A DNA stretch of 55,689 nucleotides. It comes from Lachnospiraceae bacterium. GTDB lineage: Bacteria; Bacillota; Clostridia; Lachnospirales; Lachnospiraceae. Shown here in pieces: positions 2,339 through 26,756 of the stretch. Below the pieces are notes generated by a model. That model was given only the letters and a program-made list of their open reading frames with translations, had not been told where the DNA came from and searched no databases. Each line of letters begins with the position of its first letter. Positions within the stretch are counted from its first letter, which is position 1. Position numbers and translations under genes: made by a program. The stretch lies in NCBI GenBank assembly GCA_017626325.1, contig JAGAIZ010000050.1, positions 1 through 55,689 of the forward strand, read 5' to 3'.

Positions 2339-4468
2339 TTACTGCGCATCCGCATTTAGCTTCTGCAGAAGCTCCCTGATATCAATCGGTTTCGTAATAA
2401 AATCGTCCATACCGCTCTGAAGCGCTCTGTCCCTGTCCTCCGCAAAGGTGTTGGCAGTACAGGCGAAAATTTTAACTTGCTCAGCGTCCGCCCTGTCAAG
2501 CGCCCGGATGGCAGCGGTAGCGGCGTACCCGTCCATGACAGGCATCTGTACGTCCATCAGAATTACGTCGTATTCGCCCGGTTCAGAAGCCATAAACAGC
2601 TCCACGGCCTCTCTGCCGTCCCTTGCCCGGTCTATCCTGTATCCTGCCTCCGTGAAGATCTCCATCAGAATCTCCGCGTTTAATTCATTGTCCTCCGCCG
2701 CCAGAATCCTTCTGATCTCCGTCTTATTACCATCGGCGGCCTGCACCGCCCGCCCGGGCGCATCTTCCGTATCCGGCTGTTCCGCCACAGCCGCCGGAAG
2801 TTCAAAGGTAAACGTGCTCCCTTTCCCTTTTTGGCTGACAACAGACAGCGTTCCTTCCATCAGTTCCGAAAGCTGTTTGCTGATAGCCATGCCAAGGCCG
2901 GTACCCCTGGTGCCGTCGGAGGTCTTGCTTCTCTCCTGAGAGAAGGATTCAAAAATATGCTTCTGGAATTCCTCGCTCATGCCGCATCCGGTGTCCGTAA
3001 TCTGAAAAACCGTGGTTACTCTGCCCTCTCCGCTCTCCCGCTGGCGAACCGTCATCACCACGCTTCCGCCTGCAGGCGTGAACTTGGCCGCATTGCCCAG
3101 AATATTCATCAAAATCTGCTCTATCCGCACCTTATCGCCCACAATCGCCGTCCGGGCAAGCTGACTGTCCACCCGGAACCGGATACCGTTGGTTTCCATC
3201 CGGTTGCTGATTAACGTCTCAATCGTGTCTATCAGATTCTGTAAAGAAAAGGCTTCCTTCTGTAATTTCATGCTCTGCTGGGACAGCTTCTGCATATCCA
3301 GAATGTCATTGACAAGCGCCAGCAGATATTGCGCCGTAGAAGCGGATTTGGCAAGATAATCCTCCAGCTTCTCCGGATTGTCCCGATTCTGCCGCATCAG
3401 ATGAAGCAAGCCCAACAGACCGTTAAGGGGCGTGCGGATTTCATGACTCATGCTGGACAGGAAGTCTCCCTTCGCCTTGGAATCCGCCTCCGCTCTGGAC
3501 GACGATATCCTGTTTCGCATGATAATAAACAGCATGACCATCAAAGCGCCCGTCACCACCACCAGAAGGATAACCGCCATCATAGTAAAGGCAAAGCTCT
3601 GCTCCTCAAACACCGCCATTTCCACCTGCATCAGGATAATCCACTCTGAATCAGGGATACGTACAGAGGCCAATATCTGCCTGATCCCGTTCTTATCCTC
3701 ATATTGTACAAGCTGGAAGTCCCCGGATGATATCCGCTCCTTCACCTCTTCTATGGAATCCCCGGCCCGAAGCTGCCCTTCCGCCAGCATATTGAAGATA
3801 TTGTCCTGAACGCCTAAGCTGTTGGTTCTGTCCACATTGACAATAAAATATCCTTCCTCGTCTATCAGCCCCGTAAAACCGCGCCCATCAAAGCTGTCCA
3901 CATTGAGCCTGTCTTCCATCATGGACACATCCGTCATGCCCACAATTCCCACGATATTAATATCGTCTACCCGCATAGGCTCAGAGGATATGCCGTATAC
4001 GATACGGTTTCTCTGCATAATGGTATAATCGTCCGTATTGCCGCAGTAATACATTACAAAACGTTCTTCCTGATTTAAAACACGCTGGATATAAGGTAGT
4101 GACGCGCTGTCAGAAATAAGATTGAAATTAGAGTATGTCGTTCCCCTATCATCTACCAGATATAATAATTCAAAGCTCGACACAGACTGCTCTTTGCCTA
4201 AGGCAAGAAGCATATCCGATACAGATTGTTCTTCTTCAAATTTTAGGCGGTTTAGGATAGCTTCCAGTTCCCGGTAACCGACGTCCATGTTAGACTCGAT
4301 ATTCTGCATGTCATGAATCATCAGCTCCTGCACCGAAGCCAGCGTAGACTGCGTCAATGTGGCGCTGAGCCTGTTCATGTACACCACGATAGCGGCAGTC
4401 ACCACAGCGATTGTCGCAAAAATTACAATAATAAACCGTTTGCTGCTGTTTTTCTTCTCTTTCCTCAT
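2339..4468 (-). CDS. Membrane hybrid histidine kinase with receiver domain
   Basis: Sensor kinase of about 709 residues. Order: short cytoplasmic start, membrane helix (~12-30), extracytoplasmic sensor of dCache/Cache appearance (~35-285), second helix (~292-318), dimerisation domain with phospho-acceptor His342 in SHEIRTPLNG, ATPase domain with GTGLGMAISKQL, and a C-terminal receiver with phospho-acceptor Asp639 in ILMDVQMPVMDG. The start at 4468 (preceded by GTGGGGG) is preferred to the much longer open frame to 4837, because a good promoter lies at 4547-4575 inside that extension. No DNA-binding response regulator is adjacent, so the output partner (phosphotransfer protein or distant regulator) is unknown. 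Probably an operon with the solute-binding protein and isomerase. Confidence 0.9.
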   Translation of the reverse strand: MRKEKKNSSKRFIIVIFATIAVVTAAIVVYMNRLSATLTQSTLASVQELMIHDMQNIESNMDVGYRELEAILNRLKFEEEQSVSDMLLALGKEQSVSSFELLYLVDDRGTTYSNFNLISDSASLPYIQRVLNQEERFVMYYCGNTDDYTIMQRNRIVYGISSEPMRVDDINIVGIVGMTDVSMMEDRLNVDSFDGRGFTGLIDEEGYFIVNVDRTNSLGVQDNIFNMLAEGQLRAGDSIEEVKERISSGDFQLVQYEDKNGIRQILASVRIPDSEWIILMQVEMAVFEEQSFAFTMMAVILLVVVTGALMVMLFIIMRNRISSSRAEADSKAKGDFLSSMSHEIRTPLNGLLGLLHLMRQNRDNPEKLEDYLAKSASTAQYLLALVNDILDMQKLSQQSMKLQKEAFSLQNLIDTIETLISNRMETNGIRFRVDSQLARTAIVGDKVRIEQILMNILGNAAKFTPAGGSVVMTVRQRESGEGRVTTVFQITDTGCGMSEEFQKHIFESFSQERSKTSDGTRGTGLGMAISKQLSELMEGTLSVVSQKGKGSTFTFELPAAVAEQPDTEDAPGRAVQAADGNKTEIRRILAAEDNELNAEILMEIFTEAGYRIDRARDGREAVELFMASEPGEYDVILMDVQMPVMDGYAATAAIRALDRADAEQVKIFACTANTFAEDRDRALQSGMDDFITKPIDIRELLQKLNADAQ

Positions 4469-4546
4469 CCCCCACCCATGCTTTCGGTCTGCACTACAGA
4501 CAGCCGCAGGCTGCCGCCGCAAATGATATTCCTTATTATTTAGACA

Positions 4547-4575
4547 ATTATAATATACGTTTATACGAAAAGCAA
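4547..4575 (-). promoter_or_regulatory. Promoter for kinase-SBP-isomerase operon
   Basis: Reading the minus strand, TTGCTT (4575-4570), 17 bases, TATAAT (4552-4547), a good SigA-type match. Transcription would start near 4540 and leave a ~70-base leader with a small GCAGCC/GGCTGT hairpin. The rest of the gap 4469-4895 shows no gene or other clear signal. Confidence 0.65.
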
Positions 4576-4895
4576 GGAAATATGATTTACACCTCTCATC
4601 AGCCTCCTTCGCCGTATTCTGCTCTTCTCTGCATAAATCCCTTCTTTTTTGCCAAACTATAATTACATCCTGCAGGGCGTATATGCCCAGCACAATTCGG
4701 ATATTTCTCAGCAAAAGGAGCAGCCCGCGATGGAAAGCATACTGTGCGTTGATATTCCGGTGCAGATGATTTCCTGCGCCGCCAATTTCCATGGCGCCAG
4801 CAGAACCTTCCGTCTCAGATACAGTTATTTTACCCATGAATGGAGACTGTCCCGGCTGCCGGTGTGAGCGGCATAAAAGCCAGAGCCTGCAGCGT

Positions 4896-5312
4896 TCAAA
4901 ACAATGCCCCTTCTATGGCGCACAAATAGTCCATCTCCAGCACACTGCCGTCCTCCAGCAGAATCCGGCGCTCATATTCGTCGATTTTCACCACGCTGCC
5001 TGTGACAGAGCGATATGCGCCGCCGCGCTTCTTCTCATCCGGCCGGAAGTAGGTAAACGTGGCCTCAGGTCTGTCCGCCAGCCTGTCCCGAATGCTCTGA
5101 AGCCTCTCATCCAGCACTCTCTTCTCATCCTCGCCCGGTTCTGCCCATTCTTCTGTTAATCTGGCGGTTTCCGCTATGGCCTCACTGTGGCCGGTGAGTG
5201 CAGCGAAGGGTGAGAACTGCGCCGCGCGGTCTGCCAGCGGCATCTGCGGGCGGACTGCGGATACATGATGCGGCAGACAGATGATATCGTCATATAAATG
5301 GCTGTCTTTCAT
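4896..5312 (-). CDS. YolD-like protein
   Basis: A 138-residue protein of the YolD-like family, small proteins usually encoded beside Y-family translesion polymerases in Firmicutes. Visible features are the PLADRAAQFSPFAALTGH segment near residue 25-42, typical of the family, followed by a helical stretch and a beta-rich end (VKIDEYERRILLEDGSVLEMDYLCAIEG). Its ATG overlaps the stop of the polymerase gene by four bases (5309-5312), so the two are translationally coupled. Its biochemical role is not established; a partner or regulator of the polymerase is the usual inference. Confidence 0.85.
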   Translation of the reverse strand: MKDSHLYDDIICLPHHVSAVRPQMPLADRAAQFSPFAALTGHSEAIAETARLTEEWAEPGEDEKRVLDERLQSIRDRLADRPEATFTYFRPDEKKRGGAYRSVTGSVVKIDEYERRILLEDGSVLEMDYLCAIEGALF

Positions 5313-6838
5313 GCCTTGTGCCCTCCTATCTGCCGGTTCCGCTCCATCGTCGTAGCCCCTTCCTGCAAATCCATGCCCTTTAGAATCGCGTTCTTCCCGT
5401 ATTTCTTCTTAACGGAAAGCATGGCCTCCTGAAGCTTACGTTCCTTTACCAGCATTTCATCCTGCTTTGCCCGTTCCTGTTCCAGCGCTCCGTAATCCGT
5501 AAACAAGTCCATCTGCTCATAGGAAACGGTTCCCGTCACGTCGCTTTCCTTCACTAGGCGGTTGGCTCCGACCGTCACTCTGCGCACCAGAAGCTTCGGA
5601 TCTGTAATCCGGTCGTATAAATCCAGAACCGCCTCCGTAATCAGCCTGGTAGAAGAGGTCTGCCGCTCCAGATTCACTGTGCCGTGAGCGTGCCTGGGAA
5701 TCTGTCTGCCGTAACGATCTGTGGTGATTTCTCCCTTGTAGCTTTTCCTGATTGCGGAATTGGTAAGGTTTTCGATATCATACCCGATGGTCAGCACCAT
5801 CTGATCCGTAACCAGCCCTTTTTCCACCAGTTCTAATACCAGCAGTTCCGTCATTTCCCGGACAATCAGCCTGCCCTTTGTGACGTCATAGGGGCACTGC
5901 AGCACCTGTCCTGAGCTGATGCTGTTGCTTTCCGGCTGATAGGCTTTGATCAAGTCCATGGTGACAGGCTCCCAGCCCCAGGCGTGGTCGATGAGCAGCT
6001 CCGCATTAACGCCGAACATCTTGTACAGAAGCTCCTCGTTATAATACTCCTCCGGGCCGCCCAGGGAACACCTGGCAATATCCCCCATGGTAAAGAGCCC
6101 CGCCTCTTCCAGCTTCCTGCGGTATCCGTTCCCCACCCGCCAGAAATCCGTCAGAGGCCTGTGATTCCACAGAAGCCGTCGATAGCTCATCTCATCCAAC
6201 TGGGCAATGCGGACACCGTCTGCGTCCGGCGTTACGTGCTTGGCCACGATATCCATCGCCACCTTGCAAAGATACAGATTGGTTCCCACCCCTGCCGTAG
6301 CGGTAATGCCGGTTTCCTCCAGTATGTCCCGTATCATCCGGGCGGCCAGTTCCCTGGCGGTCATACGATAGGTCTCCAGATACGCGGTCACGTCCATGAA
6401 CACCTCGTCGATGGAATAGACGTGGATATCCTCCGGCGCGATGTATTTCAGGTAAATCTTATATATGAGCGTGCTGTATTCCATATAAAAAGCCATCCTC
6501 GGCGGCGCAATAATATAGGACGCTTCCAGCTCCGGATGCGCCTGCAGCTCCTCCGCCAGAAAGGAAGTCCCCGTCAGGCGGCGGCCCGGCGCTTTGCTTC
6601 TGCGCTCTGCGTTTACCTCCTTCACCCGCTGTACCACCTCAAACAGCCTGGCTCTGCCCGGAATGCCATAAGCTTTCAGAGACGGGGATACTGCCAGGCA
6701 GATGGTTTTCTCTGTTCTGGATATATCCGCCACCACCAGATGGGTGGTAAGCGGGTCTAACTGCCTCTCCACGCATTCCACCGAAGCGTAGAAGGATTTT
6801 AAATCAATTGCAAGATAAGTGCGGTGCTTGTCGTTCAT
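5309..6838 (-). CDS. Y-family DNA polymerase (UvrX/ImuB-like)
   Basis: Translesion polymerase of 509 residues acting on damaged DNA. Motifs seen: AIDLKSFYASVE with catalytic Asp12, and YSIDEVFMD with the catalytic Asp144/Glu145 pair; both are intact, so it should be catalytically active rather than an ImuB-type inactive homologue. The helix-hairpin-helix/thumb region (~190-260) and little-finger region (~290-430) follow. The C-terminus is long and helical. It is closest in arrangement to the Bacillus YqjW/UvrX type, each followed by a YolD gene, as here. A palindrome overlaps its promoter (6872-6885). No beta-clamp motif was identified with certainty. Confidence 0.9.
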   Translation of the reverse strand: MNDKHRTYLAIDLKSFYASVECVERQLDPLTTHLVVADISRTEKTICLAVSPSLKAYGIPGRARLFEVVQRVKEVNAERRSKAPGRRLTGTSFLAEELQAHPELEASYIIAPPRMAFYMEYSTLIYKIYLKYIAPEDIHVYSIDEVFMDVTAYLETYRMTARELAARMIRDILEETGITATAGVGTNLYLCKVAMDIVAKHVTPDADGVRIAQLDEMSYRRLLWNHRPLTDFWRVGNGYRRKLEEAGLFTMGDIARCSLGGPEEYYNEELLYKMFGVNAELLIDHAWGWEPVTMDLIKAYQPESNSISSGQVLQCPYDVTKGRLIVREMTELLVLELVEKGLVTDQMVLTIGYDIENLTNSAIRKSYKGEITTDRYGRQIPRHAHGTVNLERQTSSTRLITEAVLDLYDRITDPKLLVRRVTVGANRLVKESDVTGTVSYEQMDLFTDYGALEQERAKQDEMLVKERKLQEAMLSVKKKYGKNAILKGMDLQEGATTMERNRQIGGHKA

Positions 6839-6871
6839 GGCTGTCCTCTCTCATCTATCATAACCTTCTCT

Positions 6872-6904
6872 GAATACTTCTATTCTACCGCAAGGGCATG
6901 TCAA
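6872..6904 (-). promoter_or_regulatory. Promoter with overlapping palindrome for the Y-polymerase operon
   Basis: On the minus strand a perfect TTGACA (6904-6899) is followed after 15 bases by TAGAAG (6883-6878). The inverted repeat GAATACTTCTATTC (6872-6885, arms GAATA and TATTC) covers the -10. It has the look of a repressor site, but its arms and spacing differ from the Bacillus LexA box GAAC-N4-GTTC, so LexA control is only a possibility. Confidence 0.4.
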
Positions 6905-6993
6905 AGTAAACTTCCGGGTGCTGTACAGTCTGAACCCTTCGGAGGACGCGGTGAGGTTCGTGCAGACGGCAGAAGCGCTTATATGCCAGGGCT

Positions 6994-8370
6994 TTACCTG
7001 CTCTCCTTCGCCCGCTGCACCCGGAAATAAATGATGGTTCCCAATGCATCCGCAAGCAGCCATCCAGCCGGAATCGAATACCAGATCATGCTCTCTCCGA
7101 ACAAGGGCGCGAACTGATAGGACAGCGCCACACGGGTTCCAAGGGAAATAACAGTAAGCACCACAGACATCACCGGCAGATCCACCGCCCGGTAATATCC
7201 ATAGAACAAGAACAGCAGTCCGATACCGAAATAGAACATCCCCTCTGTCCGCAGATAATGCGTTCCTGCCTGAATAATCTCTGTCTCAGCGCCTTCCACG
7301 AAAATCCGTATCAGGGAAGGCGCAAACAGATACACAATTCCCGATATGGTCAGACTAAACAATACCACCATGACCACCGATTTTTTCACGCCCTGCCGCA
7401 TCCGCTCTTCCTCTCCCGCACCGTAATTCTGCGCCACGAAGACAGAGAACGCGTTGCCAAACTCCTGCACAGGCATATAGGCGAAGGCGTCAATCTTCAC
7501 ACCCACGGTAAAAGCCGCCATCACCACCGTGCCGAAGCTGTTCACCAGACTTTGTATCATCAGAATGCCGAAATTCATAATCGACTGCTGTACGCTGGCC
7601 GCCAGAGAATGCACCGCCACCTCCCGAAACACCTCGGCGTTGGTCTGAGCGGATGCGTCAGATGTCTCCTGTTCCAAATCCGGCTTACTCTGCCGCCACA
7701 GCCTGATTCCGTGGAAAACAGGCTCCCTGCGCAGACTGTATACCAGAATCCCGATACCAGAGAACGCCTGCGCTGCCACGGTGGCTGCCGCCGCGCCTTT
7801 CACACCCATGTGCCATATTATCACGAAGAGGTAGTCCATCACGATATTACCGACAGTTCCAATACCCAAAAAGACCAGCGGCACTATCGAGTTGCCCACT
7901 GCCCGCAGCATACAGGCGAAATAATTATATAGGAAAATAAAAAGAATGCCGCACAAAATAATCCATACGTAATCGCACATCATCCCGTACAATGCTTCCG
8001 GTATCCGCATCAGATACAGAATTTCATCCAGAAGAAGCATCGAAGCCGCCTGCAGAATCACCGCTACAGCGCCGATGAACGCAAACGCCGTCTTCATCCG
8101 CCTCGCTACCCCGGCACTGTCCTGCCTGCCGAAATAAATCGCGCACAGCGCCCCCGCTCCCATGCACAATCCAATCAGGATAGAAGTCAGAAACGTCATC
8201 AACGTGAAGGCAGAACCCACTGCCGCCAGAGCCTCCGGTCCCAGCGCTCTGCCCACAATCCAGGTATCCGCCATATTATAACACTGCTGTAACAGGTTTC
8301 CCAATAACATAGGACCCGTGAAAAGCAAGACCGCCTTCATCACGGGTCCTTTCGTCAAATCTCTCGTCAT
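6994..8370 (-). CDS. MATE-family multidrug/cation antiporter
   Basis: Integral membrane exporter of about 458 residues with around 12 hydrophobic segments in two repeated halves. The N-terminal DLTKGPVMKAVLLFTGPML and the QQCYNMADTWIVGRALG region are characteristic of the MATE (MatE) family, which exchanges organic cations or drugs for Na+ or H+. The start at 8370 is chosen because it opens directly on this conserved N-terminus; the open frame extends upstream to 8487 but that part is charged and unlike the family. It is the gene after the amide-sensing kinase, with a 138-base gap; no functional tie is evident. Confidence 0.9.
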   Translation of the reverse strand: MTRDLTKGPVMKAVLLFTGPMLLGNLLQQCYNMADTWIVGRALGPEALAAVGSAFTLMTFLTSILIGLCMGAGALCAIYFGRQDSAGVARRMKTAFAFIGAVAVILQAASMLLLDEILYLMRIPEALYGMMCDYVWIILCGILFIFLYNYFACMLRAVGNSIVPLVFLGIGTVGNIVMDYLFVIIWHMGVKGAAAATVAAQAFSGIGILVYSLRREPVFHGIRLWRQSKPDLEQETSDASAQTNAEVFREVAVHSLAASVQQSIMNFGILMIQSLVNSFGTVVMAAFTVGVKIDAFAYMPVQEFGNAFSVFVAQNYGAGEEERMRQGVKKSVVMVVLFSLTISGIVYLFAPSLIRIFVEGAETEIIQAGTHYLRTEGMFYFGIGLLFLFYGYYRAVDLPVMSVVLTVISLGTRVALSYQFAPLFGESMIWYSIPAGWLLADALGTIIYFRVQRAKESR

Positions 8371-8508
8371 CTTCCGTTTGTTCCTTCCGTTTCCCGGCCT
8401 GTCCCCTGCAGAACCCCTGACATAATGCCGCCTTACACTCCTTTGATTCTGCACTGTCTTTTCATTTGTTCTTTCAGTATACCGCAATTCGCCGGTCCTG
8501 CCAAGGAC

Positions 8509-11500
8509 TTAACCCGGAACTCCAAACACAATCGTGCACCCGGCCCCCGGCTCGGACTCTGCCCGCACCCAGCCGCCATGGCGCTCAATAATATTCTTCA
8601 CGGTGGCAAGCCCCACGCCCGTGCCTTCGAATTCCGCGTCACTGTGCAGCCGCCCGAACATCTCGAAGACCTTCCCGGCCTGCTCCCCCGGAAAGCCGAT
8701 TCCGTTGTCCCGAAAATAAAACACCCATTCCTGCCCCGCCTGCCGCGATTCCACCTGCAGCAGAATCCTCTCCCGCATGGCGGAATATTTCAACGCATTG
8801 GCAATAATATTGCTGACGCAGCAGTTCATAAGCGCCTCATCTCCCGTAATGTTTGGCAGGAAGCCTATTTTATATTCAACATTATGTAAACCGCTCATGA
8901 AAATATGCTCTTCGATCTGCCGCTTCACCAGATGCTTCATATTAATCCGCGCATACGAAAGATCCGTCTCCTGGGATTTGGTATATTCCAGCAGCCCGTT
9001 GATCAATTCGATGGATTTGGCGCAGTAAGCGTCGATATGGGCCGCGCACGCTTCTTCCGACGCTTCTTCCAAAGCCTCCTGCGGCTGCCCGCGCAGTTCA
9101 TTATAAAGCCTGATCGCCCGAATCGGCGCTTTTAACTCATGAGCCACCATATAGCTGAACCGCCCCAGACTCTTATTGGCTTCCTCCAGACTTCTCGTCT
9201 TCTCCAGGATGCGGTTTTCCAGCTCGTCGTGCATGGACTGCAGCCGGTCGTTCAGTTCCGTTTCCTCCGTCACATCCTTGGCAAAGAACGCGATATCGTA
9301 CTCCTGCGCGTTCAGATCCACCCGATGTACGGTCAGGTTATAATAGCGCCTGGCCGCCGCATTGTAATAGTCCGTCCGGTATTCTCCCTTTTCCTGAGCC
9401 TTCTCGATGCAGTCCGTCCACTGGTCCAGCTCGCTTTTGTCCCAGATATCCAGGAAAAGCTCCTTTCCGTCAGCGCCCTTGGAGGCAAAAAAGGCGCGGG
9501 CCGCCTGATTGGTGGTGACAATACTGCCCCGCTGTCCGCTGATGCTCCAGATCATATCGCTGCTGGATTCGAAAATAGCGCGCTGGGTACGCGCCATTTC
9601 CAGCCTGTCGCTTTGCTGTGCGTAATAATAGTCCAGATAATGGGCCAGCAGACACCCGGCGCCCCAGACCAGCATCTCTTTTAACAGCAGAAGCTGCGTA
9701 TTGCCAAGACGACTCTGGTAAGCGTTGACTGACACGGAAATATACAGAAGCTGCCCTCCGTCCGCATCTGCCGACACCACCGCCGCAAGCACCGCGCATA
9801 CTGCCGTCAGCAGGAAAAGGACATACATATGCCTGCCATATCCCTGCTTCTTCTCTGCCCTGCGGAAAAGAGGCAGCGTGCAGAGCAGATCATACAGCAG
9901 GAAAAGCAGGCACAGCATCTCCACCAACACGATCAGATTGGCATTGATAATATTGTCAGGCAGCCAGGAGAAAGCGTAACGGTAATAGCTGTCGTGGAAC
10001 CTGGCCGCAAAATGGTACAGAGGCCTGCCCACGCAGATATAGAGCACCGCCAGAGAAATCATGAAAGCATATCCTGCGGCAACGCGCATAGCCGGCTGTT
10101 TCTTCCTGTCCGCTTCTCCCTGCCTGCTCCCCAGCGCGTATAATCCCAGCGCCCAGACTATGATAATGAAGCACGGTATCACATTGGCATATCCATGGTA
10201 CGGCGTCAGGAAAAAGGGCTGTGCTGCGGCCGCGGCCGCAGCGGCACTCTTCCCCCAGGCGCGCTTCTTTTCATCAGGCTTCTTTCCAATAAACTTCTTT
10301 CCATCAAACCGCTTTCCACCCAGCCTGATGGTTCCGCCGCCGTAAAACAGCGCGCACACCACCGGCAGCACCAGAAGCGGCATCCAATATACATCGTAGG
10401 TTTCATCGACAGCGATCCGGCTTCGCCATCTTTCGCCGCCGTCCACGCCGGGATCCGGCGCAATCGGGGCATCCGATTCGTAGAGAATCTCGAACGCGCC
10501 GTTATGAATCACCGCAAAACGGCTATAGAGCCATGTGCCGTGATTCCGCGCATCCACATGGATTTTACCCTGCGGCGCATCAAATTCCAGATTGGAGAAT
10601 GCGGCGGTCAATTCTTCATAGTCATAAGGATCTTCCACTTTGGCAAGCGCCCCGGCCAGCAGATAACAGCTATTATAAGCGGATTCCGCCAGTCCTGTGA
10701 TCACGGAGCTGTCCTCCACGCGCTTCTCATATTCCTCCACAAACGCCCTGCCTGCCGCGGAATCCACACTGGAGAAATAACTCATAGCGCTGTAATGGCC
10801 CTCTCCGCATTCCGCGCCAATCTGCTTTAGCACCATTTCGTCGGTGGTGACGGAGGCGATAGGATAATCTGAGGAATCGAAGCCCATTTTCTGAAAGGAA
10901 GTATAGAAAGCGGTCAGAGAGTCGCCGATCAGATCGCAGTAGATAAAATCAGGATTTTTCTCCGCAATGTCCCGCAGAATATCATCAAACGCAATCTCTC
11001 CCGTCTTCACATAGGCTTCTCCGACGATGGAACCTCCCTGCGCGTCGATGATTTCCTTGGCGATCTTATTATAGGTGACCGGATAGAGATAATCATTTCC
11101 CACCAGATAGACCTTTTTGCCCTCCTTCTGCAGAAGCCACCGGATATAACCCTCGCTCTGCTGGTTGGGCATGCTTCCCGTATAGATGACGTGAGGGTCG
11201 CATTCGTTACCCTCCGTATAGGCAGGGTAGACAAGCACCGAGCCGTATTCCTCCAGCACAGACAGCGTGGCCTTACGGCTGGCGGAGGAATAACAGCCCA
11301 CGGTGGCCGCCACCCGGTCTCCGGCAATCAGTTTCGTAATCTTCTCCTCTGCTAACGCCGGGTCGGAAGAATAATCTTCCAGAATATATTCGATACGTTT
11401 CCCGTTAATGCCGCCGGTCTCGTTTATCTCATCAAACGCCATCCGGGCGGCGTTAATCATAGAGCGCTCCACCCCGGAGGAAGAGCCTGTCTGCGAAAAA

Positions 11501-11649
11501 AGCAGCCCGATTCTGATACTGTCCTCACCGGCTGCTTCTTCTGTCTGCTGCACGACGCCCTGCGCACGGCTCTGCAAAGCCCCGCCTGTCATAAGCAGGC
11601 ACGCTGCAAGTATTATGTAAACTAATTTTTCCCAGTTTTTTCTACCCAT
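8509..11649 (-). CDS. AmiC-like amide receptor fused to histidine kinase
   Basis: A 1046-residue sensor. Order: signal/anchor segment (~9-29), a periplasmic-binding domain (~44-410), a membrane helix near 420, an unusual Lys/Ala-rich linker with a run of nine alanines, several further membrane helices (~480-690), a PAS-like domain (~690-800), coiled linker, dimerisation domain with His837 in AHELKAPIR, and ATPase domain with GTGVGLATVKN. The receptor domain closely follows remembered Pseudomonas AmiC: GLLFSQTG, VGCYSSASRKA, SMPNQQS, GNDYLYP, IASVTTDE, YFSSVD, DAPQGKIHV and PIAPDP all have AmiC counterparts. AmiC is a cytoplasmic amide sensor; here it should be outside the cell. The start overlaps the end of the regulator gene by 8 bases, with AGGA upstream. 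Inference: it senses short amides and drives the downstream amidase genes. Confidence 0.88.
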   Translation of the reverse strand: MGRKNWEKLVYIILAACLLMTGGALQSRAQGVVQQTEEAAGEDSIRIGLLFSQTGSSSGVERSMINAARMAFDEINETGGINGKRIEYILEDYSSDPALAEEKITKLIAGDRVAATVGCYSSASRKATLSVLEEYGSVLVYPAYTEGNECDPHVIYTGSMPNQQSEGYIRWLLQKEGKKVYLVGNDYLYPVTYNKIAKEIIDAQGGSIVGEAYVKTGEIAFDDILRDIAEKNPDFIYCDLIGDSLTAFYTSFQKMGFDSSDYPIASVTTDEMVLKQIGAECGEGHYSAMSYFSSVDSAAGRAFVEEYEKRVEDSSVITGLAESAYNSCYLLAGALAKVEDPYDYEELTAAFSNLEFDAPQGKIHVDARNHGTWLYSRFAVIHNGAFEILYESDAPIAPDPGVDGGERWRSRIAVDETYDVYWMPLLVLPVVCALFYGGGTIRLGGKRFDGKKFIGKKPDEKKRAWGKSAAAAAAAAQPFFLTPYHGYANVIPCFIIIVWALGLYALGSRQGEADRKKQPAMRVAAGYAFMISLAVLYICVGRPLYHFAARFHDSYYRYAFSWLPDNIINANLIVLVEMLCLLFLLYDLLCTLPLFRRAEKKQGYGRHMYVLFLLTAVCAVLAAVVSADADGGQLLYISVSVNAYQSRLGNTQLLLLKEMLVWGAGCLLAHYLDYYYAQQSDRLEMARTQRAIFESSSDMIWSISGQRGSIVTTNQAARAFFASKGADGKELFLDIWDKSELDQWTDCIEKAQEKGEYRTDYYNAAARRYYNLTVHRVDLNAQEYDIAFFAKDVTEETELNDRLQSMHDELENRILEKTRSLEEANKSLGRFSYMVAHELKAPIRAIRLYNELRGQPQEALEEASEEACAAHIDAYCAKSIELINGLLEYTKSQETDLSYARINMKHLVKRQIEEHIFMSGLHNVEYKIGFLPNITGDEALMNCCVSNIIANALKYSAMRERILLQVESRQAGQEWVFYFRDNGIGFPGEQAGKVFEMFGRLHSDAEFEGTGVGLATVKNIIERHGGWVRAESEPGAGCTIVFGVPG

Positions 11650-12697
11650 TGTTTTTCCTGTAATCCGACGGCGTAAAGCCGGTCTGGCTTTTAAACACCT
11701 TACTCATATATTTAAAATCGTCATAGCCCAGCCGAAACGCGATTTCGGAAACAGGCGTATCGGAATATGCCAGCAGCAGCTTCGCCATCTGCATTTTATA
11801 CCGCAGCACATAGTCCACGAAGGATTCGCCCATATCCGTCTTGAAGCTGTGGCTCAGATACGTATTGTTCACACAGCAGTATTCCGCCAGATCCGTCAGC
11901 GTAATCTTGTCGCCGGGATGGGACAGCACATAAGACACCGCTTTCTGAGACAATTCGCTCATGCCCGCCGGATAGAAGCGGCCTACCGTCGCGTACAGCT
12001 CCAGCAGATATTCCTTCGCCACCGCATACACAATCATCGCGTCGTCGGAACGCAGCAGCTTCTGCTTCAGAGCATCCGGACTGCACACCAGCGCTTCTAT
12101 CCAGGGATACGCCTCTGCCGTCCCCGCATGCACGCGGCTTAAGAACGCGTGCAGCCGAAGCGTTCTGTGAACCATGGCTCCCGGCTCCTTCAGGAAACGG
12201 CAAACCGCCTCGTCGCAGAGCGTTTCCATCTCTCTGCCCTGATGCAGAATACAGTACACAATGGCATCCGTTTCCAGCCTGCCCGATTCTTCATTCTCTC
12301 CGTTTTCCCGCTGTGTCTGCGTCTGGGCAAGGAACGCTTCGGCGCGCTCCCAGACCGCCCGCAGTTTATCCGGCTCGATAGGCTTGACCAGATAATCGAA
12401 GGCTCCCAGAATCAGTCCACGTCTGGCATAATCGAAATCCGCGTACTCGCTCAGGAGAATCACGCAGGGGCACAGCTCCTGCTCTTTGACCTGCTGCAGC
12501 AAGTCAATGCCGTTATTTTTAGGCATTTTGATATCTGTAAAAAGGATATCGGTTTTTTCTTTTTCGAGCTTAACCAGAGCGTCCGCACCGTTGTCTGCCT
12601 CGAACACGATCTGCACGTCCCGAAGTCCGAGCGACGCCAGTATTTTCTTAAACTGGATTCGAAAGATTTCATAATCGTCTACAATTCCAATCCTCAT
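11642..12697 (-). CDS. AraC-type response regulator of the amide system
   Basis: A 351-residue response regulator. The receiver occupies residues ~1-120: acidic pair Asp7/Asp8, phospho-acceptor Asp55 in ILFTDIKMPKNNG, and the conserved Lys in YLVKPIEPDKL. After a helical middle part, residues ~250-350 form two AraC helix-turn-helix motifs (ITLTDLAEYCCVNNTYLSHSF and SEIAFRLGYDDFKYMSKVFK). Its end overlaps the start of the fused AmiC-kinase gene, so the two form a two-component system. The likely target is the promoter at 14548-14602, where ATTCC motifs recur in helical phase; this is inference from position and from how AraC-type regulators bind direct repeats. Confidence 0.9.
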   Translation of the reverse strand: MRIGIVDDYEIFRIQFKKILASLGLRDVQIVFEADNGADALVKLEKEKTDILFTDIKMPKNNGIDLLQQVKEQELCPCVILLSEYADFDYARRGLILGAFDYLVKPIEPDKLRAVWERAEAFLAQTQTQRENGENEESGRLETDAIVYCILHQGREMETLCDEAVCRFLKEPGAMVHRTLRLHAFLSRVHAGTAEAYPWIEALVCSPDALKQKLLRSDDAMIVYAVAKEYLLELYATVGRFYPAGMSELSQKAVSYVLSHPGDKITLTDLAEYCCVNNTYLSHSFKTDMGESFVDYVLRYKMQMAKLLLAYSDTPVSEIAFRLGYDDFKYMSKVFKSQTGFTPSDYRKNNG

Positions 12698-12737
12698 GCA
12701 GTCATCCCTTTATCCATACCTTGCACAATAATTTATT

Positions 12738-13244
12738 CTACCACACTCCCAGAAGCAGGGCAATTGCCGGAAGCCATGCGGTCGTCACGCCTTCGAAGAT
12801 CTGCAGGCACGGCGTAAGCTTCCCTAAGCTCTTTTTTAAGACCACTTCGATAAAGGACGTGGCCCACAGAACCGCCCACAGATACCAGATGACGCCCCAC
12901 CTTGCGTCAGGACTGATTCCCTGCGCCGGGATTCCGACAAAGCCTTCCATCGTGCCGAACACCACCGCGTTCACAGCCACAAATGCTGAGAACCAGGCCA
13001 CCGGTACGGCTTCCAGCCGGAACACATTGTTGATGCCCACGAACAGATAAGTAAATCCGAACAACAGCCCGGTAGCGGCGGCATAATAATTGCCCTGCAC
13101 AAGATTGATCACATTGATTATAACGGACAGACCGCCCGTAAAAAAATTCATTACTGCCACCGCTTTCGGGTCACATTTGCACAACGTCCCGATTCCGTTT
13201 AAGATCAAGACAATTCCTACATATAATAAACATACGCTGATCAT
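12738..13244 (-). CDS. amiS: AmiS/UreI-family amide channel
   Basis: A 168-residue membrane protein with about six hydrophobic helices. Such proteins conduct urea or short aliphatic amides across the membrane; UreI is the proton-gated urea channel of Helicobacter and AmiS belongs to the Pseudomonas amidase operon. Visible features are the N-terminal MISVCLLYVGIVLILNGIG helix, FLVGINN-like FTYLFVGINNVF, and the C-terminal AWLPAIALLLGVW. GGAG lies five bases before the ATG. It sits between amiE and the response regulator, which supports an amide rather than urea role: no urease genes are in the window. It would admit the amide substrate for AmiE. Confidence 0.88.
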   Translation of the reverse strand: MISVCLLYVGIVLILNGIGTLCKCDPKAVAVMNFFTGGLSVIINVINLVQGNYYAAATGLLFGFTYLFVGINNVFRLEAVPVAWFSAFVAVNAVVFGTMEGFVGIPAQGISPDARWGVIWYLWAVLWATSFIEVVLKKSLGKLTPCLQIFEGVTTAWLPAIALLLGVW

Positions 13245-13340
13245 AGTTTCTCCTTTTCCTTCCTGCTGCCCAGGTTCCTCTTATTCTTACAGTTTCTTTC
13301 AGATTTCGCCGTCAGAACGCGCCCATGGCGCGCAAACGCA

Positions 13341-13371
13341 AAAGAGACTGACATCGTCTGCCAGCCCCTTT
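13341..13371 (-). terminator. Terminator between amiE and amiS
   Basis: Arms at 13341-13353 and 13359-13371. In minus-strand RNA all 13 pairs form if G-U pairs are counted, and TTTT follows. On the plus strand three pairs fail, so the signal is for amiE-direction transcription. It would give less amiS than amiE, or separate the two transcripts. Confidence 0.65.
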
Positions 13372-13380
13372 GCTTTATAC

Positions 13381-14406
13381 TTATTCTTCATAAGGAATGC
13401 CGTCGATAGGCGCCCACTTCACGCCGGGCATTTTTCTGGTGATTTCCTCCACCTTCTTCTGTGTACCCTCCGGGTCGTTGACCCAGTTTCTGTAGAATTC
13501 AAACTGACATTCGGGATTGCCGAAACGCTCTTCTTTGGAATTAATCGTTCCTGTATAGCCCCTGTGCAGCAGCTTGTACAGATGATTCTGTGACTGCCAG
13601 TTAGCCCTTGCGTCGCGGATAGCGCTGATGGAAAGCTGCGCGTACTGATAGCTGTAATCCTCAGTTCCCGTCATGCCAAGCACTCTTCCGTCGAAGCCGC
13701 AGATAGAGGAATGGCCGAAGTAGCTGTATACGCCGTCATAACCGCTGGCGTTGGCAACAGCCGCATAAATATTGTTGCACCACGCCATAACCGGCACTAC
13801 ATTGATTTCCTGCTGGTTCGCCGGATACATATAGCCCTGACACCTTACCACGAGTTCCGCGCCTCTCATAGCACAGTCTCTCCAGATTTCAGGATAATTG
13901 CCGTCGTCACAGATAATCATGCTGACCTTCAGACCCTTGGGGCCTTCCGTTACATAAGTTCTGTCTCCCGGATACCAGCCCTCAATCGGCGTCCAGGGTA
14001 TCATTTTCCTATATTTCTGTACGATCTCGCCCTTATCGTTAATGAGAATCAATGTATTGTAAGGCACCTTGGCAGGATGCTCCTCGTGACGCTCGCCTGT
14101 CAGGGAGAACACGCCCCACACCTTGTTCTCGATACATGCCTGCTTAAAAATCTGTACCTCTTCTCCGTCTATAGAAGCCGCCAGTTCCATCATTTCGTCG
14201 AAATCATACATGATACCGTGGGTACTGTATTCGGGGAACACAACCATATCAAGACCGGGAATACCTGCTTTTAAGCCCTTTATATAATCCGCAATCCTGT
14301 GGCAGTTGTCGATAATCTCGGCTTTCGTATGCATTCTCGGCATCTTCCAGTTTACGACTGCTAATCCTACGTTGTCTGCGCTTGATGAAATGTCTCCGTG
14401 TGTCAT
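13381..14406 (-). CDS. amiE: Aliphatic amidase
   Basis: Hydrolyses short aliphatic amides to carboxylic acid and ammonia (EC 3.5.1.4); nitrilase superfamily, cytoplasmic. At 341 residues it is about the length of Pseudomonas AmiE (346). From the chosen start [10 protein letters not shown] the catalytic triad falls exactly at the classical positions: Glu59 in VFPEYSTHG, Lys134 in KYRKMIPW, Cys166 in [14 protein letters not shown]. The sequence matches amidase rather than formamidase AmiF, which has a different N-terminus and Cys motif. GGAGGAG lies six bases before this ATG; the open frame extends further upstream but that part contains the ribosome binding site. First gene of the amide module and preceded by a leader with a terminator (14480-14513). 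Confidence 0.96.
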
Positions 14407-14479: not shown

Positions 14480-14513
14480 AAAAAGAGGCAGCAATGTCAT
14501 CCATTACTGCCTC
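14480..14513 (-). terminator. Rho-independent terminator in the amiE leader
   Basis: Arms 14485-14496 (GAGGCAGCAATG) and 14502-14513, loop of five, then TTTTT (14484-14480) on the minus strand. It stands ~75 bases before the amiE ATG and ~35 bases after the predicted -10 at 14553-14548. It either ends the upstream symporter transcript, or attenuates amiE itself, or both. Confidence 0.75.
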
Positions 14514-14547
14514 TTCGCATTCACGTTATGTACTTGTTACATGTTTC

Positions 14548-14602
14548 ATTATAGCGTTTCTAAGTGGAATGTACACGGAATATCTTTTGCAAAAAGTGGA
14601 AT
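14548..14602 (-). promoter_or_regulatory. Probable regulated promoter of amiE with phased repeats
   Basis: Minus strand: TATAAT at 14553-14548, with a poor -35 (GTGTAC, 14576-14571) at 17 bases. A weak -35 suggests need for an activator. ATTCC occurs three times in the same direction at 14570-14566, 14581-14577 and 14602-14598, i.e. steps of 11 and 21 bases, close to one and two helical turns. Two of them share the longer ATTCCACTT. This fits binding by the AraC-type regulator at 11642-12697. Confidence 0.6.
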
Positions 14603-14606
14603 ATTT

Positions 14607-15962
14607 TTACTTAAGTCCCTGCACCAGTATAATCAATATCAGCACCGGCAGCACGAACCGGAAATAAAATTTAAGCTTCCCGGGCAGCTTCAGCCCTTTG
14701 CCCGTATTGGCCTCCGCCAGATACTGATCGAAGCCCCAGCCCCACTTGGTCACGCTAAACAGCAGGAAAATAAGAGAGCCCGCGGGAAGCAGCAGATTGC
14801 TCACAAGGAAATCCTCGCTGTCCAGCACATCCCTGCCGCCGATCAGACGCAGATTGCTCCATACATTATATCCCAGCACGCAGGGCAGACTTGCAATCAA
14901 CACGAAGATACAATTTATCACAGCAGCCTTCTTCCTGCTCCAGCCGAAATTATCGATGCAGCCTGCCAGCAGATTCTCAAACACCGCAATCACGGTAGAG
15001 AAGCTTGCGAAGGTCATAAAGAGGAAGAACAGCGCGCCCCAGAGACGCCCGCCCGCCATATTCACGAACACATTGGGCAGCGTCACGAAGATCAGGGACG
15101 GACCGGCGTCAGGCTCCACGCCGAAGGAGAAGCAGGCCGGAAAGATGATCAGGCCGGACATCAGCGCCACAAAGGTATCCAGGCCGCAGATACGCACGGC
15201 TTCCCCCGCCAGCGTGCAGTCTCTGGACATATAGCTTCCGAAAATCTCCATCGCGCCGATACCAAGGCTTAAGGTAAAAAACGCCTGATTCATCGCCGCA
15301 GTAATCACATTGCCGATGCCCGCTTCCTTCGCCCGCTCCAGATCCGGCATCAGATAGAAGGAAACGCCCTCTCCCGCGCCGGGCAGCATTATGCTATGTA
15401 TCGCCAGTATCACGATCAGCCCCAGCAGCGCCAGCATCATCACCTTGGTAATCCGCTCCAGGCCTTTCTGCAGGCCGAAGCTGCAGACCAGAAAGCCCGC
15501 AAGCACCGTGACCGCCATCCACACGGTCATCTCCGCCGGATCCGCGCACAATGCGCCGAAAACGCCGCCTACTGCCTCCGCGTCCATACCCTTCTGAAAC
15601 GTTCCCGCGGCAAACTTAAAGAAATAACTAAGCATCCAGCCGGACACCGTAGTGTAATACATCATCAGCAGATAACAGCCAATCATACAGACCCATCCGT
15701 GAATATGCCACTTACTGCCCTTACGCTCAAGCGTCTTATAGCCCAGCACAGCGCTTCTGCCGCTGGCACGTCCCACGGCAAGCTCCATCGTCAGCACCGG
15801 CACACCCATACAGAGCAGAAACAGCAGATAAAACAGCACAAACACCGCGCCGCCGTTCTCTCCTACCACGTAAGGGAACCGCCACACATTCCCGATACCG
15901 ATGGCGCATCCCGCGCTCACCAGAATAAATCCCAGACGGGAGCCGAAATTTTCTCGTTCCAT
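14607..15962 (-). CDS. Sodium-dependent symporter, NSS/SNF family
   Basis: Membrane transporter of about 451 residues with around 11-12 helices. The N-terminal block SRLGFILVSAGCAIGIGNVWRFPYV is the family signature forming the Na+ and substrate sites in LeuT-type transporters of amino acids and related amines. YLLFLLCMGVPVLTMELAVGR follows as in the family. The ATG at 15962 has AGG eight bases upstream; a GTG at 15965 is also open. Promoter at 16034-16062. The substrate cannot be told from sequence. It lies upstream of the amide module but is separated from it by a promoter, so shared regulation is not implied. Confidence 0.92.
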   Translation of the reverse strand: MERENFGSRLGFILVSAGCAIGIGNVWRFPYVVGENGGAVFVLFYLLFLLCMGVPVLTMELAVGRASGRSAVLGYKTLERKGSKWHIHGWVCMIGCYLLMMYYTTVSGWMLSYFFKFAAGTFQKGMDAEAVGGVFGALCADPAEMTVWMAVTVLAGFLVCSFGLQKGLERITKVMMLALLGLIVILAIHSIMLPGAGEGVSFYLMPDLERAKEAGIGNVITAAMNQAFFTLSLGIGAMEIFGSYMSRDCTLAGEAVRICGLDTFVALMSGLIIFPACFSFGVEPDAGPSLIFVTLPNVFVNMAGGRLWGALFFLFMTFASFSTVIAVFENLLAGCIDNFGWSRKKAAVINCIFVLIASLPCVLGYNVWSNLRLIGGRDVLDSEDFLVSNLLLPAGSLIFLLFSVTKWGWGFDQYLAEANTGKGLKLPGKLKFYFRFVLPVLILIILVQGLK

Positions 15963-16033
15963 CACAATAACCTGACCTTTCTCTTAACCTGCGAATTTGA
16001 ACCAACGGCACAAATTTCACAAACTCTTTTGCT

Positions 16034-26683: not shown

Positions 26684-26756
26684 TCGGAATGACAAGACTT
26701 GAACTTGCGACCTCTACTTCCCTAAAGTAGCGCTCTACCACCTGAGCCACATCCCG
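26684..26756 (-). tRNA. tRNA-Pro with AGG anticodon
   Basis: A 73-base cloverleaf is complete. Acceptor stem CGGGATG pairs with CATTCCG, D-stem GCTC/GAGC, anticodon stem CTACT/AGTAG, T-stem GCAAG/CTTGT with loop TTCAAGT. The anticodon loop TTAGGGA puts AGG at positions 34-36, reading CCU (Pro). Acceptor and anticodon context match bacterial tRNA-Pro. The AGG anticodon is unusual in bacteria, where Pro tRNAs usually carry UGG, GGG or CGG. The 3' CCA is not encoded and would be added. Confidence 0.9.

Follow-up and report, generated by a model that had tools for sequence, protein, structure and literature searches.

In the amidase gene cluster of a Lachnospiraceae bacterium (GenBank assembly GCA_017626325.1, contig JAGAIZ010000050.1) we describe a sensor kinase that opens with a periplasmic-binding-type receptor related to the amide sensor AmiC. 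The stretch analysed, hereafter the window, is 55,689 nucleotides (nt; 55.7 kb) long and belongs to a genome of 88 contigs. We consider the protein most probably a surface amide-receptor kinase that controls amiE and amiS through the AraC-type response regulator encoded beside it. The amidase operon of Pseudomonas aeruginosa is a classic case of inducible control, in which a cytoplasmic receptor works with an antiterminator; here an AmiC-type receptor appears to be placed on a membrane kinase within an amidase operon, so that the parts are known and the combination is apparently new. A literature search, thin in subscription journals, found no AmiC-type kinase. The central features are:

8509-11649, minus strand: sensor histidine kinase, 1046 residues (Pfam, hydropathy scan, direct residue location)
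10447-11529, minus strand: its receptor domain, 361 residues, with an amide-type pocket (AlphaFold model, mean predicted local distance difference test score, pLDDT, 95.5)
11642-12697, minus strand: response regulator, 351 residues, with receiver (Asp55) and AraC-type HTH_18 (Pfam; Asp55 located directly)
12738-13244, minus strand: AmiS/UreI family channel, 168 residues (Pfam AmiS_UreI, E 4.3e-52)
13381-14406, minus strand: amiE, aliphatic amidase, 341 residues counted from the ATG (NCBIfam NF009802)

A preliminary description of this DNA had read the 1046-residue protein as an AmiC-fold receptor followed by membrane helices, a PAS-like domain and a kinase with His837, and our analysis confirms that domain order. 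The receptor region matches Peripla_BP_5 (residues 45-400, E 2.4e-107), and further matches are to PAS_8 (690-742, 19.4 bits, under the cut-off of 21.8), HisKA (828-892, 21.1 bits, under the cut-off of 26.9, in an alignment that includes His837) and HATPase_c (937-1045, E 3.5e-21). His837 sits in the motif HELKAP, and the ATP-site motifs DNGIGFPG (981) and GTGVGLA (1009) are present; we take these, together with Asp55 of the regulator, to have the roles usual in such proteins. The features of a two-component kinase are found together: a HisKA region with its histidine, an HATPase with its motifs, and a partner regulator. A hydropathy scan found an N-terminal anchor (9-27), whose start is basic, and then five further segments over threshold between 423 and 626, and an extra hydrophobic segment near 650-670 was seen by eye alone. 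From hydropathy, the likely topology has the receptor outside the cell and the kinase inside, which retains the outward-facing receptor of the preliminary description as likely while its ligand stays a prediction. The amidase and its setting are as first described: AmiE passes the NF009802 aliphatic amidase model (630.5 bits, cut-off 427), Glu59, Lys134 and Cys166, which we take to be catalytic, were all located directly, and gene order and family matches group kinase and regulator with AmiS and AmiE.

The AmiC fold spans the whole receptor domain. With AmiC numbering counted from the alignment, the receptor keeps Tyr83, Ser85, Tyr104, Tyr150 and Tyr152 among what we take to be the AmiC pocket residues, and the urea triad is absent; at the shared pocket positions the window reads YSYAYENYYIT, AmiC YSYTPESYYVT and the urea-binding protein UrtA (7s6e) WSYIQESYFNS. 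One study reports that changing Trp120, Ser122, Gln144, Tyr190 or Asn246 weakens or abolishes urea binding by UrtA (PMC10392092). At these five positions the window has Tyr, Ser, Tyr, Tyr and Ile, and AmiC has Tyr, Ser, Pro, Tyr and Val, so that Trp120, Gln144 and Asn246 of UrtA are replaced in the window by Tyr, Tyr and Ile. In a tree of 86 rows the receptor groups, with support of 100/100 and apart from the UrtA proteins, with its nearest kin, the binding proteins of locus L070 (genome G389, of the same order) and locus L088 (a Peptococcaceae metagenome-assembled genome), to which it is 53-54% identical. The AmiC rows form a separate clade within the same 38-row clade, and the receptor does not branch with AmiR-linked AmiC. 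On this tree the receptor and AmiC are homologs without being orthologs, and the receptor belongs with the binding proteins of Bacillota amide transport; the name AmiC, as first given, holds for fold and pocket type and fails for orthology.

The kinase start and the regulator gene overlap by 8 nt, and the regulator carries both receiver and HTH_18, in agreement with the preliminary description. An AraC-type regulator adjoins amiE at five loci: the window, L181, L182, L088 and L070. Identity to the window's regulator is 40% in L181 (divergent), 32% in L182 (upstream) and 36% in L088 (upstream); the homolog in the amiE cluster of L070 is 37% identical over its second half and has no receiver by Pfam. 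Receiver identity is 44-47% for L181, L182 and L088 and 22% for L070; three regulators that adjoin urea-type transporters (L074, L080 and L081) reach 36-38%. Searches with the window's kinase domain (E 1e-8) detected no kinase in the 12-20 kb stretches of L070, L088, L181 and L182, the stretch of L182 being cut off, about 9 kb from amiE, within a frame that could be the beginning of a kinase. Stand-alone receptors are present in L070 and L088, and no receptor was found in the L181 or L182 stretches. Because four other loci are without a detected kinase, and two of them without a receptor, the regulator can work in other settings; regulator and amiE therefore form a recurring unit, to which the window adds a predicted receptor kinase. 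The regulator homolog of L070 that lacks a Pfam receiver (3585-4559, minus strand) looks decayed. Bacillota urea-type ATP-binding cassette (ABC) clusters at L074, L080, L081 and L082 also have an AraC-type response regulator nearby, and kinase genes lie in the stretches of the first three.

Two elements before amiE suggest where this regulator would act:

14548-14575, minus strand: sigma-70-like promoter TGTACA-16-TATAAT (consensus match only)
14577-14611, minus strand: tandem direct repeat AGTAAAAATATTCC / GCAAAAGATATTCC, 21 nt from start to start, one base before the -35 hexamer; predicted regulator site

The best 42-nt ungapped match upstream of amiE scores 27 between the window and L070, 26 between the window and L181, and 31 between L070 and L181, and was equalled in 3, 6 and 0 of 300 paired shuffles, respectively. 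Half-sites are spaced 21 nt apart in the window, L070, L181 and L182, and 22 nt apart in L088. With the 21-nt repeat scored alone, shuffles did as well in 40 (window), 41 (L070), 43 (L181), 0 (L182) and 143 (L088) of 300 trials; because shuffles so often match the score in the other loci, the repeat is striking by itself only in L182. A leave-one-out matrix, built each time from the four other loci, found the expected place in all five, with 0 (window), 2 (L070), 8 (L181), 87 (L182) and 0 (L088) of 300 shuffles as good. When the matrix was built without the window, the site upstream of amiE scored highest on both strands of the whole 55.7 kb (20.8, against 15.1 for the next separate place). 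In four of the five loci, 1-2 nt separate the end of the repeat from a -35-like hexamer, which a -10-like hexamer follows after 16-17 nt; in L088 the promoter match is weaker and overlaps the repeat. This is the position expected of an AraC-type activator site, and the tandem repeat is likely the site of the regulator. A 12-mer scan upstream of amiE gave scattered matches only, though the repeats appear in its output.

In order of transcription, all on the minus strand, the genes are that of the sodium symporter family, amiE, amiS, the response regulator, the kinase and a MATE gene. The outer two are:

14607-15965, minus strand: sodium:neurotransmitter symporter family gene, directly upstream of amiE
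6994-8487, minus strand: MATE gene, 3' of the kinase gene on the same strand

The stop of the symporter-family gene overlaps the first half-site of the repeat. At the gathering threshold Rfam finds a single match in the window, a tRNA gene at 26684-26756 (minus strand).

We propose that the type I binding-protein domain closes on a short-chain amide outside the cell, and that the kinase would receive this movement by way of the membrane helices and the PAS-like region. His837 is predicted to hand phosphate to Asp55 of the overlapping regulator, which would bind the tandem repeat beside the amiE -35 hexamer and so control amiE, amiS and its own operon; AmiS would admit the amide, and AmiE would hydrolyse it to acid and ammonia. 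From sequence features we infer the identity of the ligand, the sign of the response, its target, the topology and the assignment of the repeat to the regulator. That the kinase activates amiE, as the preliminary description held, we also infer; the regulator and an upstream repeat, both found again at amiE in other loci, lend this some support.

Several observations weigh against this proposal. The kinase fusion is seen in one genome only; the HisKA and PAS matches score under the Pfam cut-offs; and a full-length structure prediction (mean pLDDT 55) is confident over the receptor only and unreliable beyond it, and was left unused. The four other regulator-amiE loci are without a detected kinase, L181 and L182 also without a receptor. 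Upstream of amiE there is no overall similarity between the window and L182 (157 of 300 shuffles as good) or L088 (115 of 300), the half-sites were picked by eye in AT-rich regions, L182 does not pass the leave-one-out test, and in L088 the spacing is 22 nt and the promoter match weak. The receptor also differs from AmiC at positions 106 (Ala), 107 (Tyr) and 148 (Asn), the first of which governs the preference of AmiC for acetamide or butyramide. Because of these departures the ligand may be another amide: from the pocket we expect an amide, and not necessarily acetamide.

The departures at 106 and 148 would also fit a kinase that senses some other nitrogen compound, such as urea, a larger amide or a carbamate, with amiE as one of several targets. 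The best NCBIfam model over the receptor is that of UrtA (TIGR03407, 302.9 bits), and the nearest solved structures by sequence and by fold are urea-binding proteins: identity is 40% to UrtA 7s6e and 38% to 8tg1, compared with 32% to AmiC, and 8tg1 ranks first in the fold comparison. We nevertheless think this explanation unlikely, as the TIGR03407 score lies far under the cut-off of 492.75, Trp120, Gln144 and Asn246 are absent, and the tree groups the receptor with amiE-linked proteins. Pocket residues and tree led us to reject a urea sensor in particular, although plain identity and fold slightly favour urea proteins. The preliminary description had held that clustering with urea or branched-chain amino acid binding proteins would speak against an AmiC-type receptor; such clustering is absent by tree and pocket, while identity and fold put urea proteins at least as near as AmiC.

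It is less probable still that the regulator is the amiE-specific part and that the kinase mainly serves the MATE or sodium symporter genes, or leaves amiE unaffected. The MATE gene does follow the kinase gene on the same strand, and the regulator adjoins amiE at loci without a detected kinase, but the kinase and regulator genes overlap by 8 nt and the receptor is kin to amiE-linked binding proteins. We give least credence to the possibility that an assembly error joined a stand-alone amide-binding protein to an unrelated kinase. Such an artifact could be suspected in a single genome of 88 contigs with no second copy among the sampled genomes; against it, one unbroken frame runs across receptor, membrane segment and kinase, G+C along the gene is 0.48-0.60 with no step, and in positions 10000-11000 the only direct repeat is short and imperfect (15 nt, 80%), inverted repeats being absent. 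A surface amide-receptor kinase remains the reading that we prefer.

Receptor queries covered 299 family, 392 order, 398 phylum, 50 genus and 391 class genomes, 57 relatives, and 58 genomes of the family of G389; the window's genome is in every sample except the last, and the samples overlap, amounting to about 1,400 genomes together (E 1e-20 to 1e-60; family scan E 1e-3). No second kinase fusion of this receptor lineage was found in these roughly 1,400 genomes. Outside the 299-genome family scan, the other receptor matches listed have frames of 380-467 residues and are stand-alone proteins; among the matches listed in the family scan, frames have 304-486 residues and one has 748. This 748-residue frame, in genome G043, is a remote match (22% identity) and contains a stop. 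Of 649 plasmid records that match at E 1e-40, none does so over 80% of the query. A search with the membrane/PAS segment in the 50 genus genomes gave one weak match besides the window (E 1.7e-4). AmiE relatives at E <=1e-60 occur in 4 of the 299 family genomes, and relatives of more than 75% identity in 3, including the window's own. Long receptor frames in L134, L137 and L161 were discarded as over-long start choices, having Pfam matches to binding-protein families only. Kinase frames of 1114-1159 residues lie divergent from amide/urea-type ABC clusters at L131 (4390-7761), L124, L132, L134, L146, L158 and L164; that of L131 is a hybrid kinase by Pfam, with a hydrophobic N-terminal half without a match.

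Comparison with related systems sets the fusion apart. Whereas AmiC of P. aeruginosa acts with AmiR on amiE (PDB 1pea, 1qo0), the window's receptor is anchored and part of a kinase, occupies a different branch of the amide clade, and has as its output an AraC-type DNA-binding regulator in place of the ANTAR antiterminator AmiR. Its kin in L070 and L088 are immediate amiE neighbours in an ABC-transporter cluster, the amiE genes being 88% and 75% identical to the window's, and a more distant binding protein in L089 of Paenibacillus darwinianus (43% identity) is likewise an amiE neighbour; all three are stand-alone proteins with ABC genes, in contrast to the window, with its kinase and no ABC genes among the neighbours examined. 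L089 also encodes a 990-residue frame (4744-7716, minus strand), divergent from the ABC transporter and amiE cluster, in which an amide-pocket Peripla_BP_5 is similarly fused to a regulator; its output, unlike the window's kinase, is a sigma-54 AAA+ activator (sigma-54 interaction domain). UrtA (7s6e, 8hic, 8tg1) shares the fold at 37-40% identity without its urea residues being kept in the window. A contig-wide scan that gave the parallel fusions (best 80 of at least 451 loci) also found Peripla_BP_5, HisKA and HATPase in one protein in Microcoleus (L143, 7974-10901) and Oscillatoriales USR001 (L162, 8025-10586). Unlike the window's protein these have a urea-type pocket, a HAMP domain and another place in the tree, L143 also a receiver, and no AmiE match was found in either stretch. 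By eye, neither has a signal peptide at its first start codon.

The amidase genes may carry a further layer of control in two hairpins:

14484-14514, minus strand: intrinsic-terminator-like hairpin in the amiE leader, -21.4 kcal/mol and then a T-run, about 77 nt before the ATG
13341-13371, minus strand: terminator-like hairpin in the amiE-amiS gap with an ANTAR-P2-like mini-hairpin, AGC[AAAGGG]GCT (hairpin search)

The second may be nothing more than the terminator at the 3' end of amiE. In the window, L181 and L182 the distance from a terminator-like hairpin to the amiE start downstream is 75-82 nt; L070 has two leader hairpins at other distances, and L088 a long T-run-ended hairpin unlisted by the hairpin finder. 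Across nine loci such hairpins precede 4 of 25 divergently placed genes, including amiE of L181 and glnA of the window's genome, and 17 of 35 co-directional genes, where the hairpin may therefore only end the upstream gene. Terminator-like hairpins stand before amiE, amiS and glnA in the window, L181, L182, L070 and L187, several with an ANTAR-like mini-hairpin. ANTAR targets are reported to have a hexaloop mini-hairpin at the 5' arm of a terminator (PMC3369931). Among 356 terminator-like hairpins from 18 loci chosen for nitrogen genes, 17 have one: three before glnA, one before amt, three before amiE (L070 twice, L181), one in the window's amiE-amiS gap, three in receptor/ABC clusters (L082, L083, L171) and six untied to such genes. 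The strict ANTAR dual motif, a pair of hexaloop mini-hairpins (A1, G4) of which the second overlaps a terminator, was found in none of six leaders; P2-like hairpins were seen, the upstream partner was not. The window's amiE leader has no P2-like hairpin, loop position 1 there being G, not A, and a partner hairpin further upstream was not seen. A search of four genomes for ANTAR genes gave one in each, immediately 3' of a frame resembling glutamine synthetase (Pfam-checked in the window's genome). No ANTAR (AmiR) partner adjoins the kinase, the genome's only ANTAR match being on another contig, beside glnA. That these hairpins may be a nitrogen-status attenuator is a lead, and less certain than the receptor kinase.

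We suggest, tentatively and as a possibility that we rate below even, that the amide-receptor domain was captured independently by an ANTAR partner, a sigma-54 fusion and a membrane kinase fusion, all for amiE. The kinase would move sensing from the cytoplasm to the surface, and in this lineage the amiE leader terminator would perhaps be under the glnA-linked ANTAR protein, so that amides would be sensed at initiation and nitrogen status at elongation. If the kinase acts as proposed, the AmiC receptor fold would serve as a one-piece surface receptor kinase in amidase control, and the ligand of a kinase could be guessed from its pocket and neighbouring enzyme, with a predicted operator at hand. 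Together with the Paenibacillus sigma-54 fusion, it would show a single sensor domain joined to unrelated outputs that share a target gene.

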